DNA from: Amycolatopsis alkalitolerans | GTDB taxonomy: Bacteria > Actinomycetota > Actinomycetes > Mycobacteriales > Pseudonocardiaceae | Length of the DNA: 64,000 nucleotides | Reading direction: 5' to 3' | Assembly: GCF_006152065.1 (NCBI RefSeq) | Contig: NZ_VDFW01000009.1 | Location: 1 to 64,000 of the forward strand | Part shown: piece after piece, positions 50,064 through 55,012 of the stretch | Layout of the letters: the number at the start of each line of letters is the position of its first letter | How positions within the stretch are numbered: the stretch's first letter is position 1 | Notes under the pieces: generated by a model | Database searches by the model: none | What the model was told of the DNA's origin: nothing | What the model saw: only the letters and a program-made list of their open reading frames with translations | Made by a program: the position numbers and the translations under genes

Positions 50064-50753
50064 TCAGGCGGCTTCGGGGAGTTCTGTGTCGTGCTCGCGA
50101 CGCGTGTCGTCGACCGGGCGGCGCATCTCCTGGCGGTACCGCACGATGCCGAAAGTCGTACCCCCGATGAAGAACGCCACCGAAAGCCAGACGAGCACCG
50201 TCTTCACCCAGGGGATCACTTCCAGCAACCCGGCGCCGTAGTAGCCGAGCAGCACCAGTGTCGGCACCCACAGCAGCCCGCCGAGCGTCGTCGCGAGCAG
50301 GAACCGCCGCGGGTTCATCCGGGCGGCGCCCGCGATGAGCGGCGCCAGCGTGCGCACCCACGGGATCCACCGCGCGGCCACGACGGCGAAGAACCCCCTG
50401 CGGTCGAGGAACGCGCGCGCCCGCTCGAGGTTGGCTCTGTTCAGCACGCGCCCGCCGCGGCGGGCGATGAACCGGGTGCCCGTATGCCTGCCTATGTAGT
50501 ACCCGGCCTGGTTCCCGACGACGGCGACCACCAGCGCGGCCACCGACAGCAGCCAGGCGTTGGCGTCGGCGCCGTGCGAGGCCAGCACGACCCCGGCGGC
50601 GAACAGCAGCGAATCGCCCGGGAGGAACAGGCCGACGATCAGCGCGCATTCCACGAACACGAAACTGAGCACGATCACCCAGACCAGCACCGGGCCCGCG
50701 GTGTCCAGCCAGCTGACACCAAGGCCTGACGAGGCGGCGTTCACGACACTCAC
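50064..50753 (-). CDS. DedA-family membrane protein
   Basis: A 229-aa DedA/VTT-domain protein with several membrane helices. Marks are VIVLSFVFVECALIVGLFLPGDSLLFAAGVV (the E-x-x-x-x-x-x-x-P-G-E/D region), GNQAGYYIGRHTG and FFAVVAARWIPWVRTLAPLIAGAARM (the F/R-x-x-P-x-x-R motif). DedA proteins are thought to move phospholipid carriers or undecaprenyl phosphate. GTG 50753 is chosen because a TAGGCT -10-like hexamer lies seven bases before it; a start at 50819 is possible. A second DedA gene is at 56994. Confidence 0.87.
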   Translation of the reverse strand: MSVVNAASSGLGVSWLDTAGPVLVWVIVLSFVFVECALIVGLFLPGDSLLFAAGVVLASHGADANAWLLSVAALVVAVVGNQAGYYIGRHTGTRFIARRGGRVLNRANLERARAFLDRRGFFAVVAARWIPWVRTLAPLIAGAARMNPRRFLLATTLGGLLWVPTLVLLGYYGAGLLEVIPWVKTVLVWLSVAFFIGGTTFGIVRYRQEMRRPVDDTRREHDTELPEAA

Positions 50754-50844
50754 CCGCCGAAGCCTACGTGGCGAACGCAAGCCGCGGTCAGCCGAAGGGG
50801 TATTCGCCGTATCCGTCAACCACTCGGAGCCCTCGAACGGGTGC

Positions 50845-51666
50845 TCACATCTGCGGCAGCGACTCGCCTTGAACGGCCTCGACGTCGATTTCGATCTTCA
50901 CCGTGGTGCCGATCGCGGCGACCCCGGCCCGGACCATCGCGTTGTAGTTGATCGCGAACTCGTTCCGGTGCAACTGGGTCTCGGCGTGGAACGCGGCGCG
51001 CACGCCGCCCCACGGGTCCGGGCCCCAGCCGCCGTAGGTCAGGTCCAGCTCGACCGGCCGCCGCTCACCGTGCAGGGTGAGCTCGCCCGCCAGCGTCCAC
51101 GTGTCCGCGCCGCGCTGGCGCAGGCCCGTGCTGGCGAAGCTGATCGTCGGGAAGGTGTCGACGTCCAGGAAGTCCGGCGAGCGGAGGTGGTCGTCCCGCA
51201 TCTTGATCCCGCTGTCGAGGCTCGCGGCCTTGATCTCGGCCGCGACCGAGGACTGCTCGACCGGCCTTCCGATCACGATCCGGCCGTTGACCTCGCTGAA
51301 CCGGGCCCGGATGCTCGCGATGCCCAGATGCCGCGCGGTCGCGACGACCGTGGTGTGCACCGGGTCGATCGTCCACGGCCCCGGCGGCGGCGGTTCGACC
51401 GAACCGGCCACCGGCTGCAGCGGGATCTCCCCGAGGGAGCCGGTGCCGTCCGAGCCGATCTGCGCCGTACGGGCGACCGGGTTGTACCCGGCCGCGGTGA
51501 GCACGGCGGTGTAGACCCCGGGGGGCAGTGGCTGAGTGTCCACCGCCCCCTTCGCGTCCGAGACCGCGCGAGCCACCTGGTGGCCGGACATGTCGGTCAC
51601 GGTGAGCACCGTGCCCTCGACCGCCCAGCCTTCGGCGGTCTGGATCCGCGCGTTCAGGCCCGTCAT
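50845..51666 (-). CDS. Transthyretin-like repeat fused to a YceI domain
   Basis: A 273-aa two-domain protein. Residues 1-85 are a carboxypeptidase-regulatory/transthyretin-like beta sandwich (VEGTVLTVTDMSGHQVARAV, LPPGVYTAVLTAAGY). Residues 95-270 are a YceI lipocalin-like domain (GPWTIDPVHTTVVATARHLG, ARFSEVNGRIVIG, DDHLRSPDFLDVDTFPTISF, LTLHGERRPVELDLTYGGWG). YceI proteins bind isoprenoid or fatty ligands and are normally exported, yet no signal peptide is seen. The first domain continues the repeats ending the upstream MFS gene, with which it overlaps (ATGA). Confidence 0.9.
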   Translation of the reverse strand: MTGLNARIQTAEGWAVEGTVLTVTDMSGHQVARAVSDAKGAVDTQPLPPGVYTAVLTAAGYNPVARTAQIGSDGTGSLGEIPLQPVAGSVEPPPPGPWTIDPVHTTVVATARHLGIASIRARFSEVNGRIVIGRPVEQSSVAAEIKAASLDSGIKMRDDHLRSPDFLDVDTFPTISFASTGLRQRGADTWTLAGELTLHGERRPVELDLTYGGWGPDPWGGVRAAFHAETQLHRNEFAINYNAMVRAGVAAIGTTVKIEIDVEAVQGESLPQM

Positions 51667-54272
51667 GACCGCTCGCCGCCGAACTGGTCGATCACCTGCT
51701 CGTACCCGAGCCGCACGTCGTGGACCGCCTCCCCACCCGGCAGCTCGACCTGGCTCGTCGCCGGCGGGTATCCGCTGGCCACCACGGTGTAGCTGCCCTC
51801 GGGCAGATCGCTCACCAGGTACCGGCCTTCGGCGTCGGTCCTCGCCACCGCGGCCACGTTGCCGTTCCCGTCGAGCACCGTGATGCGGGCATCGGGGACC
51901 GCGCGATCGCCGTCCGTGCGGGCCGTGCCGGAGAGCACGACCGCCGAGGACAACTCGAGGTCGTGCCGCAGCACGCCGCTGTCGGGCACGGTCAGCATCT
52001 CCGCGACCGGGCGCATCCGCTCGGCACTCGCGACCAGCGTGTACGTCCCGGCGCCGACGCCGTGGAAGGTGTACGCGCCTTCCGTCGTGGTGATCGACGC
52101 GCCGGTGACCTCACCGCGCGAGTCGGTCAGGGTGACCGTCGCGCCCGCGAACGGCGTGCCCTGCCCGGCGATCCGGACGGTGCCGCTCAACTCTCCGGAA
52201 CCGACCAGCGTGAGGTCCAACTGGGCGGGGCCGTGCCCGACCACGACGCTGGAGGCCTGCGGCTGGTGGCCGCTCGCCGAAACGATCAGCACGTACGTGC
52301 CCGCGCCAGGAGCGTTGATGGTGTACGCACCGTCGCTGCCCGCCGTGCCCCGCGCGACCTGGCGGCCGCGCTGGTCGATCAGGGTCAGCGCCGCGCCGAG
52401 CACCGAGGAACCGTCCTGCCTGCGGATATGCCCGCTGATCGGCTGGCCGTCGGTGTCGACGGGGCTGCTCATCCCGGCCGTCGCCGTGGCGAACGGCGCT
52501 GTCTGCGTGGCGAGTTCGTAGTTGCCGTGCCCGTTGGTCTCACCTGGCGCCGCATGGCGGCCGGCGCCGACGAGCGCCGGTTCGGGCTCCGGCTCGGCCA
52601 GCGCCGCCTCGGCGTCGGCCCAGTTCTCCGATTCGGCGCTGGCCTCGTCCGGCAGCAGCGCCTCGCCGCCCTCCATGGCCGGGGCCGACGGGCCGGGCCT
52701 GTCCTGGAGCGGGATCTCCCGCATGAACAGCAGCACGATGGTGGCCAGCAGAGCCACGCCGGCGGCCACGTAGAACACGCCGTGCATCGAGTTGGTGAAG
52801 CCGGTCAGCACCGGGTCCTTGATGGCCGCGGGCAGGCTGTGCAAACCGCTCGTGTTCGACTGCAACTGGTTCAGCGCGCCGGCGTTGAACCCGGCCGGCA
52901 GGTGGCCGCCGAAGGCGTCCGAGATCCTGGTCGGCAGCAGGTTGAACAGGATCGTCAGGAAGACCGCGACACCCAGCGTGCCGCCCATCTGGCGGAAGAA
53001 CGTCGCGGACGCGGTGGACACACCCATGTCACTGCGCGGACCGGCGTTCTGCGCAGCGATGATCAGCGTCTGCATACAGCCACCGAGGCCGAGGCCGATG
53101 ACCAGCGTGTACACGAGCGGCTGCCACGCCGGGCTGTCGAAGTGCACCTGCGCGAAGAGCACCGTGCCAGCCGCGATGACGAACGTGCCGACGATCGGCA
53201 GGATCTTGTACCGGCCGGTCTTCGCGGTGATCTGGCCCGAGATCTGCGAGCCGATCATGATGCCCAGCACCAGTGGCAGCATCAGCAGGCCGGCCTCGGT
53301 CGGCGAGTAGCCGCGGACCACCTGGTAGTACTGCGGCACCATGGTGATGCTGCCGAACATCGCGACACCGACGATCGTGCCGGCGATGATGACCAGGCTG
53401 AACGTCGAGTTCTTGAACAACCGCAACGGGATGAGCGCCGCGTCCTTCATGACGTACTCGACGAAGATGAACAGGATCACGCCGAACGCCGCGACCGCGT
53501 AGCAGATCACCGACCGGGTCGAGCCCCAGCCCCAGGTGCGGCCCTGCTCCGCGACCAGCAGCAGCGGCACGACGGCCACCGCGAGCGAGAGCGCGCCCCA
53601 CCAGTCGATCTTCTGCGGCTGCTTGAGGTGCGGGACGTTGAGCACCCTGAACACGACGAACAGGGCGACGATGCCGATCGGCACGTTGATCAGGAAGACC
53701 CAGCGCCAGCCGTGCAGCCCGCCGAGGGTGGTCAGGCCGGAGAAGAACCCGCCGAGCACCGGGCCGAGGACGGTCGCCGAACCGAAGACCATCATGAAGT
53801 AGCCCTGGTACTTCACCCGCTCACGCGGGGGCACGATGTCACCGATGATCGTCATGGCCAGCGACATCAGGCCACCGGCGCCAAGGCCCTGGAACGCCCG
53901 GAAGGCCGCCAGCTCGTACATCGAGGTGGCGAACGTACAGGCGGCCGAACCGATCACGAAGATCGCGATCGCGGCCAGGAAGAACGGTTTGCGCCCGTAG
54001 ATGTCGGACAGCTTGCCGTACAGCGGGGTCGCGATCGTCGCGGTGATCAGGTACGCCGTGGTGGCCCAGGCCTGCTCGCTGAACCCGTTCAGGTCGTTCG
54101 CGATCTTGACGATCGCCACGCTGACGATGTTCTGGTCGAGCGCGGCGAGGAACATGCCCAGCATCAGGCCCGACAGCACGGTCATGATCTGCCGGTGTGA
54201 CAGCCGCGGCATCTCCGCCACCGGCGCGGCTCCCCCCGCCGCCGCCGCGGGTTGTCTGGTGGAACTCGTCAT
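51663..54272 (-). CDS. DHA2-type MFS drug exporter with C-terminal transthyretin-like repeats
   Basis: An 869-aa fusion. About residues 25-520 form a 14-helix EmrB/QacA-type exporter (MLGMFLAALDQNIVSVAIVK, ITATIATPLYGKLSDIYGRK, GWRWVFLINVPIGIVAL). After a Glu/Pro-rich linker come three carboxypeptidase-regulatory/transthyretin-like repeats of about 75-80 residues (ISGHIRRQDGSSVLGAALTL; LSGTVRIAGQGTPFAGATVT; LSGTARTDGDRAVPDARITV), each ending G-x-Y-x-x-x-A/V-S/A-G. In a 14-helix exporter these would lie in the cytoplasm, which is unusual for such domains. It lies between MarR (3 bases away) and the YceI fusion gene, forming an operon. Confidence 0.93.
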   Translation of the reverse strand: MTSSTRQPAAAAGGAAPVAEMPRLSHRQIMTVLSGLMLGMFLAALDQNIVSVAIVKIANDLNGFSEQAWATTAYLITATIATPLYGKLSDIYGRKPFFLAAIAIFVIGSAACTFATSMYELAAFRAFQGLGAGGLMSLAMTIIGDIVPPRERVKYQGYFMMVFGSATVLGPVLGGFFSGLTTLGGLHGWRWVFLINVPIGIVALFVVFRVLNVPHLKQPQKIDWWGALSLAVAVVPLLLVAEQGRTWGWGSTRSVICYAVAAFGVILFIFVEYVMKDAALIPLRLFKNSTFSLVIIAGTIVGVAMFGSITMVPQYYQVVRGYSPTEAGLLMLPLVLGIMIGSQISGQITAKTGRYKILPIVGTFVIAAGTVLFAQVHFDSPAWQPLVYTLVIGLGLGGCMQTLIIAAQNAGPRSDMGVSTASATFFRQMGGTLGVAVFLTILFNLLPTRISDAFGGHLPAGFNAGALNQLQSNTSGLHSLPAAIKDPVLTGFTNSMHGVFYVAAGVALLATIVLLFMREIPLQDRPGPSAPAMEGGEALLPDEASAESENWADAEAALAEPEPEPALVGAGRHAAPGETNGHGNYELATQTAPFATATAGMSSPVDTDGQPISGHIRRQDGSSVLGAALTLIDQRGRQVARGTAGSDGAYTINAPGAGTYVLIVSASGHQPQASSVVVGHGPAQLDLTLVGSGELSGTVRIAGQGTPFAGATVTLTDSRGEVTGASITTTEGAYTFHGVGAGTYTLVASAERMRPVAEMLTVPDSGVLRHDLELSSAVVLSGTARTDGDRAVPDARITVLDGNGNVAAVARTDAEGRYLVSDLPEGSYTVVASGYPPATSQVELPGGEAVHDVRLGYEQVIDQFGGERS

Positions 54273-54794: not shown

Positions 54795-54825
54795 GGTCAT
54801 CACCTTCTTCGCTTAATTGGCGCCT

Positions 54826-54837
54826 GCAACTAGTTGC
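54826..54837. promoter_or_regulatory. MarR operator palindrome GCAACTAGTTGC
   Basis: A perfect 12-bp palindrome 31 bases upstream of the marR start. Related half-sites follow (CAACTGGTTG near 54857 and TAGTTGCC near 54910), so several dimers may bind across the region to the divergent F420-type gene. Confidence 0.7.
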
Positions 54838-55012
54838 CCTAAGCAAGGATGCACCTCAACTGGTTGGTTGCGCCAGTCAAATAACTCCCCATGTGTCGTA
54901 AAACACTTTAGTTGCCAAAGGCAAGTGAATTACCCTGGGTCGCTCTGTCCGGTTCGCACCGTTCACTCCCCGCGCATATCGAAACTACGCCCGGGGTACG
55001 ACAATTCCTGGC

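Follow-up and report, generated by a model that had tools for sequence, protein, structure and literature searches.

In a 64,000-nucleotide stretch of DNA from Amycolatopsis alkalitolerans (the window; contig NZ_VDFW01000009.1, positions 1 to 64,000), four consecutive minus-strand genes encode, in this order, a MarR regulator, a major facilitator superfamily (MFS) exporter, a YceI-domain protein, and a DedA-family membrane protein. The exporter (P0001) ends in a tail of three transthyretin-like (TTR-like) repeats, here called T3, and one such repeat is fused to YceI in the product of the next gene (P0002), here called T-YceI. Our main finding is that T3 follows its partner T-YceI gene and not its own pump body: gene order and domains are conserved, T3 and T-YceI share a history, and that of the pump body differs. 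We read the locus as a MarR-controlled export unit of the DHA2 type, in which T3 would be a socket that holds a lipophile-binding T-YceI at the cytoplasmic mouth of the pump, and we put the probability of this reading at about 0.45. As we picture it, the cytoplasmic C-terminus of the exporter would carry the T3 socket on a flexible linker, and the co-translated, soluble T-YceI would plug into T3 via its own repeat. The docked YceI lipocalin, held at the pump's cytoplasmic mouth, might then take up hydrophobic compounds, whether cytoplasmic or in the inner leaflet, and so raise their local supply to the pump.

Shared history of the exporter tail and T-YceI

We compared 30 Nocardia rows piecewise with the window, taking pumps with a body of at least 380 amino acids. 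T3 was 58-67% and T-YceI 64-69% identical, whereas the pump bodies fell into two classes by their identity to the body in the window, class A at 75-80% (18 rows) and class B at 36-38% (12 rows). The change in identity, which marks the exchange breakpoint, falls in the linker between body and repeats (residues 521-607; 52452..52712, minus strand). In a 74-row tree of the T3 plus T-YceI module, the Nocardia sequences form one clade with a Shimodaira-Hasegawa-like approximate likelihood ratio test (SH-aLRT) value of 100, and in the 74-row body tree the class A Nocardia lie within the window's Amycolatopsis group (29 rows, SH-aLRT 100), locus L101 being omitted from both. Moreover, a single Nocardia clade is rejected for the body (p = 7.2e-10), as is, for the module, a union of the class A rows and the Amycolatopsis group of the window (p = 2e-56). 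In 38-row trees of T3 alone and T-YceI alone, with rows chosen by hand, the 18 Nocardia rows form one clade each (100/100), the same union is rejected for both (p = 1.3e-39 and p = 2.7e-96, respectively), and a single Nocardia clade is rejected for the body (p = 4.5e-5); p values from both sets of trees are optimistic, the clades having been named after the trees were seen. We conclude that T3 follows T-YceI because their trees share a Nocardia clade that the body tree rejects.

The MarR regulator accompanies the body, with 65-66% identity to that of the window in the four class A Nocardia checked and 31-39% in the six class B loci checked. One exchange that replaced regulator and pump body, leaving T3 with its T-YceI, is thus well supported. 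A sequence-only reading of this stretch had suggested an exchange at the joint between the two genes; an exchange did occur, but what was swapped was regulator and body, and T3 and T-YceI stayed together across that joint.

Domains and folds of the two proteins

The exporter gene (54272..51663, minus strand; 869 amino acids) matches the MFS_1 profile and has three stretches that match CarboxypepD_reg (PF13620). Its body (residues 1-520; 52713..54272) matches the DHA2/EmrB model TIGR00711 over residues 31-516 with 266 bits against a cut-off of 230.2. The closest named models are the tetracycline exporters OtrB (414.3 bits) and Tcr3 (405.8 bits), though both scores are far below the NCBIfam cut-offs (999 and 1000) and P0001 is assigned to neither family. 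In the AlphaFold2 model of P0001, built like that of P0002 from alignments made in this analysis, 14 long membrane helices are followed by a disordered linker, with a predicted local distance difference test (pLDDT) score below 50 at residues 526-607, and then by three beta domains (mean pLDDT 79.5). Among known structures, Foldseek matched the body to EmrB (8zal; TM-score, TMt, 0.84) and EfpA (8x6x; TMt 0.86).

The three tail stretches together score 122.5 bits for PF13620 (cut-off 32.3), and the T3 profile match spans 51702-52439. Repeat 1 comprises residues ~610-690 (52203..52445; model strands 610-678), repeat 2 residues ~693-775 (51948..52196; best PF13620 stretch 695-774, model strands 693-774), and repeat 3 residues ~778-857 (51702..51941; model strands 778-855), all on the minus strand. 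Overlapping the exporter gene by ATGA (51663..51666), the T-YceI gene (50845..51666, minus strand; 273 amino acids) opens with a further repeat (residues 1-90; 51397..51666), whose 30.5 bits for PF13620 fall slightly below the same cut-off. We consider this repeat genuine nonetheless, since it resembles the three exporter repeats with z of 7.1 to 12.4 against shuffles and its model matches the TTR domain of human carboxypeptidase D (Foldseek 5aq0, TMt 0.82). Indeed, all four repeats are mutually similar far beyond shuffles (z 7.1 to 15.1). The YceI domain (residues ~96-266) scores 144.9 bits for PF04264 (cut-off 23.7), and the P0002 model shows a TTR-like domain and then a YceI barrel (pLDDT 87.2; residues 240-252 mostly below 50). 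Its YceI domain was matched by Foldseek to 7bwl (TMt 0.91), 1wub (0.86) and BcnA (5ixh_A, 0.90), the matches comprising PA0423, E. coli YceI, TT1927b, BcnA, and BcnB; the structure titles of 1wub and 2x34 mention polyisoprenoid binding. The sequence-only reading had the architecture right: profile matches and the model bear out a 14-helix exporter with three repeats, shuffle scores, fold match and PF04264 bear out a fourth repeat joined to YceI in the overlapping downstream gene, and the sequence itself has the two genes separated only by the ATGA overlap.

In the related DHA2 pumps at L228 and L229 (45-46% identical), the C-terminal tail is longer and of another kind. A winged-helix domain in such homologous tails was considered as evidence of topology, found no Pfam match in either, and was not used.

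Age of the split layout and a parallel system

Our survey covered 103 distinct T-YceI loci (15 duplicates removed) from Amycolatopsis, Prauserella, Nocardia, and other actinobacterial genomes, these being the best hits in 61 relatives and in a 296-genome phylum set, plus the best 80 of 150 of a further list. A T3 gene with exactly three repeats lies upstream of T-YceI at 94 loci and none lies upstream at the other nine. With the start codon closest to the repeat used for calling overlaps, the two genes overlap at 77 of the 94 (65 by ATGA, 11 by one base, and 1 by GTGA), three have gaps of up to 30 bases, and 14 have larger gaps; in eight genomes of a genus of the same class (f18 g45), which we take to be Streptomyces, exporter and T-YceI are 78-354 bases apart. 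A fused exporter-YceI gene was found at 0/103 loci. With the split form prevailing and no fusion among these loci, the split is therefore old, and the recent fission proposed earlier is rejected. Two long frames, one of 1542 amino acids in G055 and one of 612 in G030, were followed up as fusion candidates, and neither is a fusion. At L114, pump-T3 and T-YceI occupy opposite strands; at L115, they are distinct frames, and the body of the pump is broken into two.

Moreover, a second T3-tailed exporter, with a partner gene overlapping it by four bases (ATGA or GTGA), is present in 19/19 genomes of the window's genus examined (L162:5689-9056, in the window's own genome, C65, and L234-L251). Taking the start closest to the upstream stop, the partner consists of three repeats only, has 246-261 amino acids, and shows no visible leader; in the second exporter at L246, two tail repeats were detected. 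That a partner can be made of repeats alone fits the idea that repeats bind repeats.

Natural variants and co-occurrence

In Prauserella rugosa (L076), the MarR gene is followed by a separate T3 gene without a pump body, beginning close to the first repeat and with no visible leader, and then by T-YceI. In six Nocardia, T-YceI stands by itself and a class B pump-T3 lies elsewhere in the genome (T3 59-62% identical; the match in G358 is partial). Quick trees of hand-chosen rows gave these separate T3 and T-YceI genes matching positions, sister to L075/L086 (SH-aLRT 87 for the six T-YceI and 89 for the five T3 rows used). The idea, prompted by the operator-like palindrome described below, that the solo T-YceI genes are simple deletion relics of a class A locus was dropped, as the T-YceI tree places them with class B and the best match to the window's MarR in these genomes is 35-39% identical.

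Among 61 relatives, T3 was found in 29/29 genomes with a full T-YceI (E<=1e-60) and in 3/32 without, and across the 296 genomes of the phylum set (12 with T3) in 10/10 and 2/286, respectively; these counts come from the best candidates per genome (8 or 9 at phylum scale), with thresholds set after the data were seen and relatedness uncorrected.

These variants bear on a different explanation, namely that the T3 tail serves to oligomerise or stabilise the pump, that the T-YceI repeat is a common domain reused independently, and that the gene order is a matter of co-regulation only. In keeping with it, no repeat was detected in the short tails of pumps whose bodies share 58-61% identity with that of the window (L217-L220), a tree of 39 hand-chosen bodies (some branches long) implies six or more changes in T3 state, and T-YceI paralogues occur without an adjacent T3-tailed pump. 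However, P. rugosa keeps T3 without the pump body (if under weaker constraint), the T3 tree tracks T-YceI and not the body, both genes are kept at unlinked loci in the six Nocardia, and the repeats-only partner recurs throughout the window's genus, so that we consider this explanation quite unlikely.

Points against docking, and the scope of T-YceI

A number of points weigh against a T-YceI docked on the exporter. To begin with, T3 and T-YceI are adjacent on the DNA, and therefore one crossover in the linker would retain both without selection; DNA linkage could account for part of their shared history. The choice of clades and of co-occurrence thresholds after the fact and the uncorrected relatedness, given above with the numbers, count in the same direction, as does the 38-row body tree, where class A Nocardia do join the window's group, though at a node that lacks support (56/0). 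A second body swap, proposed for A. acidicola and A. acididurans (body 77%, T3 85-88% identical), failed its topology test on hand-chosen rows, the module tree being compatible with the body topology (p = 0.42 and p = 0.136). Further, the freed T3 of P. rugosa is under weaker constraint, with nonsynonymous (dN) and synonymous (dS) divergence from P. cavernicola of 0.343 and 0.795, than T3 between two pump-bearing Prauserella (dN 0.067, dS 0.351), and the same is so for T-YceI of P. rugosa (dN 0.227, dS 0.579) as set against the pump-bearing pair (dN 0.066, dS 0.468). In P. halophila (L090), an intact T-YceI stands beside a decayed T3 remnant only; this genome has another pump-T3 (L169). There are also paralogous T-YceI genes without a T3-tailed pump in the stretch examined (L111, L112, L116, L118, L119, and L120), two genomes with a paralogous T-YceI and no T3 match (G024 and G031), and seven pump-T3 loci without T-YceI alongside (L163-L169). 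Finally, the cytoplasmic side of the repeats is a prediction, and the docking of T3 with the T-YceI repeat is argued from evolution. The repeat-repeat contact proposed in the sequence-only reading thus holds as a partnership of repeats, which the T3 and T-YceI trees and the repeats-only partner support, and physical docking is what we infer from it. Ligand binding in the YceI pocket and transfer to the pump we put forward more tentatively still.

That T-YceI was kept when body and regulator changed also makes a lipocalin matched to one substrate less likely. Since a single T-YceI lineage is found with two different pump bodies and their two regulators, T-YceI would sooner be a general lipophile binder than a carrier matched to one pump substrate. 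It is possible, if doubtful, that the whole arrangement is a modular actinobacterial chassis for export, in which a cytoplasmic socket of TTR-like repeats and a plug (lipocalin or repeats only) would be inherited together, bodies would be exchanged with their own regulators, and one soluble lipophile-loading subunit would serve several pumps.

Two of the paralogous loci and two Prauserella loci have surroundings of their own. At L111:7618-8472 (own genome, C56), a T-YceI paralogue ~38% identical to P0002 lies downstream of genes that look by eye like gyrB and gyrA. The paralogue at L112:7864-10251 (minus strand) lies downstream of a SpoIIE-type phosphatase gene and a repeat-free MFS gene, the latter being an ordinary MFS gene two genes upstream. 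Proteins with T repeats and no exporter occur in Prauserella at L171:5109-6616, where a one-repeat frame immediately precedes a three-repeat frame, and at L170:5966-7174.

Side of the membrane

Between helices 2 and 3, P0001 has the motif A sequence GKLSDIYGRKP, which we take to be the cytoplasmic loop 2-3 motif. With 14 helices, both termini would therefore lie on the same side, and motif A would make that side the cytoplasm; the exporter repeats are accordingly placed in the cytoplasm as a prediction from the modelled helix number and this motif. The AlphaFold2 model has 14 helices and not the 13 or 15 that would put the repeats outside, though a hydropathy scan alone gave 13 peaks, the weak second helix being missed. 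As for P0002, the first beta strand of its model begins at residue 4, so that a signal peptide could not fit before it if translation begins in the overlap, and on this basis a BcnA-type secretion signal is absent. Nor does P0002 contain a cysteine, as a lipoprotein partner of the LprG-P55 kind would. Both the cytoplasmic repeats and the lack of a signal peptide, as held in the earlier reading, are supported by these predictions. N-terminal hydropathy did not serve as a signal-peptide test, for maxima reached 1.76 (36 rows; 103 loci) and a true membrane helix of the pump, as control, scored 1.5.

Were T3 to face outward, T-YceI might instead resemble BcnA, as a lipocalin released from the cell to capture drugs. 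Secretion of BcnA and its capture of antibiotics are reported (PMC5350466), the sequence-only reading held both domain types to be usually external, and the N-terminal hydropathy does not discriminate. Set against this are the 14 modelled helices, the motif A loop, the first strand of T-YceI at residue 4 of an overlapping gene, and the start of the P. rugosa T3 gene and of the repeats-only partners near the first repeat without a visible leader, and we regard an external location as very improbable.

Regulation and the DedA-family neighbour

Two features of the locus were new to this analysis, an operator-like palindrome before the MarR gene and the DedA-family gene downstream. The regulator P0003 (54276..54803, minus strand; start GTG at 54803 or ATG just after) matches PF01047 with 50.1 bits. 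On its 5' side lies the palindrome GGCAACTAGTTGC (54826..54838, minus strand), and the core GCAACTAGTTGC is found upstream of MarR in 9/9 aligned Amycolatopsis sequences. This core is present with at most one mismatch in the four class A Nocardia loci scanned and absent, up to two mismatches, from the six class B loci scanned. The 13-mer GGCAACTAGTTGC occurs once in the window's 6.78 Mb genome, namely here (a reversed control also occurs once), and is probably bound by this MarR. In five of the six solo-T-YceI Nocardia, there is one exact 13-mer per genome, starting ~50 bases before T-YceI (L081:5950, L082:5950, L083:5950, L085:5950, and L087:5595), and the sixth has one mismatch (L096:5950); the reversed control gave 0 to 3 hits per genome. 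This suggests MarR-type control of T-YceI on its own. The single exact 13-mer of P. rugosa is at L279 (G353:C24:17580-17592), on a different contig from its MarR gene, and the P. halophila genome has no exact copy.

The DedA-family gene (P0006; 50064..50819, minus strand; start uncertain, TTG at 50819 or GTG near 50744) matches PF09335, the VTT domain, with 83.4 bits (cut-off 33.9), and scores 112 bits for NF008102, well under the cut-off of 236. DedA proteins are reported to be candidate undecaprenyl phosphate (UndP) translocases (PMC9876793, PMC10127716), and the UndP-flippase subfamily (COG0586) is said to carry acidic side chains in the first re-entrant helix and basic ones in the second (PMC10127716). 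At the positions so reported, P0006 has, by eye, E and D in VECALIVGLFLPGDS and two R in ARWIPWVR.

This neighbour raises the possibility that T3 and T-YceI make up a cytoplasmic carrier complex for lipids or isoprenoids that chiefly serves membrane lipid metabolism, working with DedA, and that the pump is one membrane anchor among several. A DedA-family gene lies downstream of T-YceI at 41/42 named Amycolatopsis and Prauserella loci, including both Prauserella lacking the pump body, and the reported candidacy of DedA proteins as UndP translocases and the polyisoprenoid binding named in YceI structure titles point the same way, as does the T-YceI of P. rugosa and P. halophila, which is still constrained (dN 0.096, dS 0.615). 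However, a same-strand downstream DedA gene was found in 0/36 named Nocardia loci for which 5 kb or more of downstream sequence was available (of 38), and six more distantly related loci from the window's family lack one within 1.5 kb (L023, L024, L026, L027, L028, and L030). Gene adjacency can moreover persist without function, and the MarR regulator and an exporter near OtrB and Tcr3 point to drug-like compounds; we judge the lipid-carrier explanation unlikely.

On the opposite strand, upstream of the MarR gene, the window has a gene for a FAD-linked oxidase (PF02913, PF01565; 55495-56886, plus strand). PADLOC gave no match for P0001, P0002, or P0006 and only weak ones (17-19 bits) for P0003, and a defence function was dropped for want of a supporting match.

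Comparison with known systems

With DedA proteins, the likeness lies in the PF09335 match and, judged by eye, may extend to acidic residues and arginines at the positions reported for UndP flippases; the difference lies in that a P0006-type gene is only a neighbour, in Amycolatopsis and Prauserella. YceI genes are also found in actinobacterial sulfonamide-degradation (sad) clusters, where the authors suggest that YceI aids sulfonamide uptake (PMC6868719). Like T-YceI, this is an actinobacterial YceI gene beside drug-related genes, but it adjoins monooxygenases and not a T3-tailed pump. P0002 shares its fold with the YceI/BcnA lipocalins TT1927b, BcnA, BcnB, and PA0423 (TMt 0.84-0.91) and differs from them in having no room for a signal peptide, in its N-terminal TTR-like repeat, and in being encoded with a pump. 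BcnA is reported to bind hydrophobic antibiotics, rifampin among them, and crystals of BcnA and BcnB to contain bound octaprenyl pyrophosphate (PMC5350466).

The pump itself matches EmrB/DHA2 exporters over its whole body (TIGR00711 266 bits; OtrB 414 bits) and in its EmrB/EfpA fold, and is set apart from these, OtrB and Tcr3 included, by the C-terminal T3 tail and the T-YceI partner. Among the open-licence PMC literature matches listed (in part the best 10-20 of 63-453), as judged from titles and abstract openings, there was none on a T3-tailed MFS pump or an MFS pump with T-YceI. To our knowledge, secondary drug pumps of the MFS are generally described as drawing substrate from the cytoplasm or the membrane unaided by any soluble protein on the inner face.

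A close parallel is LprG-P55 of mycobacteria. As in the window, an MFS pump is co-encoded with a second protein, and the Foldseek matches of the window's pump include 8pnl, a homologue of Rv1410 (P55). LprG is an extracytoplasmic protein with a lipid pocket. Both the pump and its co-encoded lipoprotein LprG are reported to be needed for the correct transport of toxic compounds (PMC4055363). The natural variants described above (body swapped, body lost, genes unlinked, and partner of repeats only) make docking testable with small soluble proteins. If our reading is right, a conserved soluble lipocalin stationed at the cytoplasmic mouth would represent a novel means of loading an MFS pump, of relevance to a group rich in antibiotic producers, and, with a pocket protein that is predicted to be cytoplasmic and shares repeats with its pump, the window's system would be the mirror image of LprG-P55.

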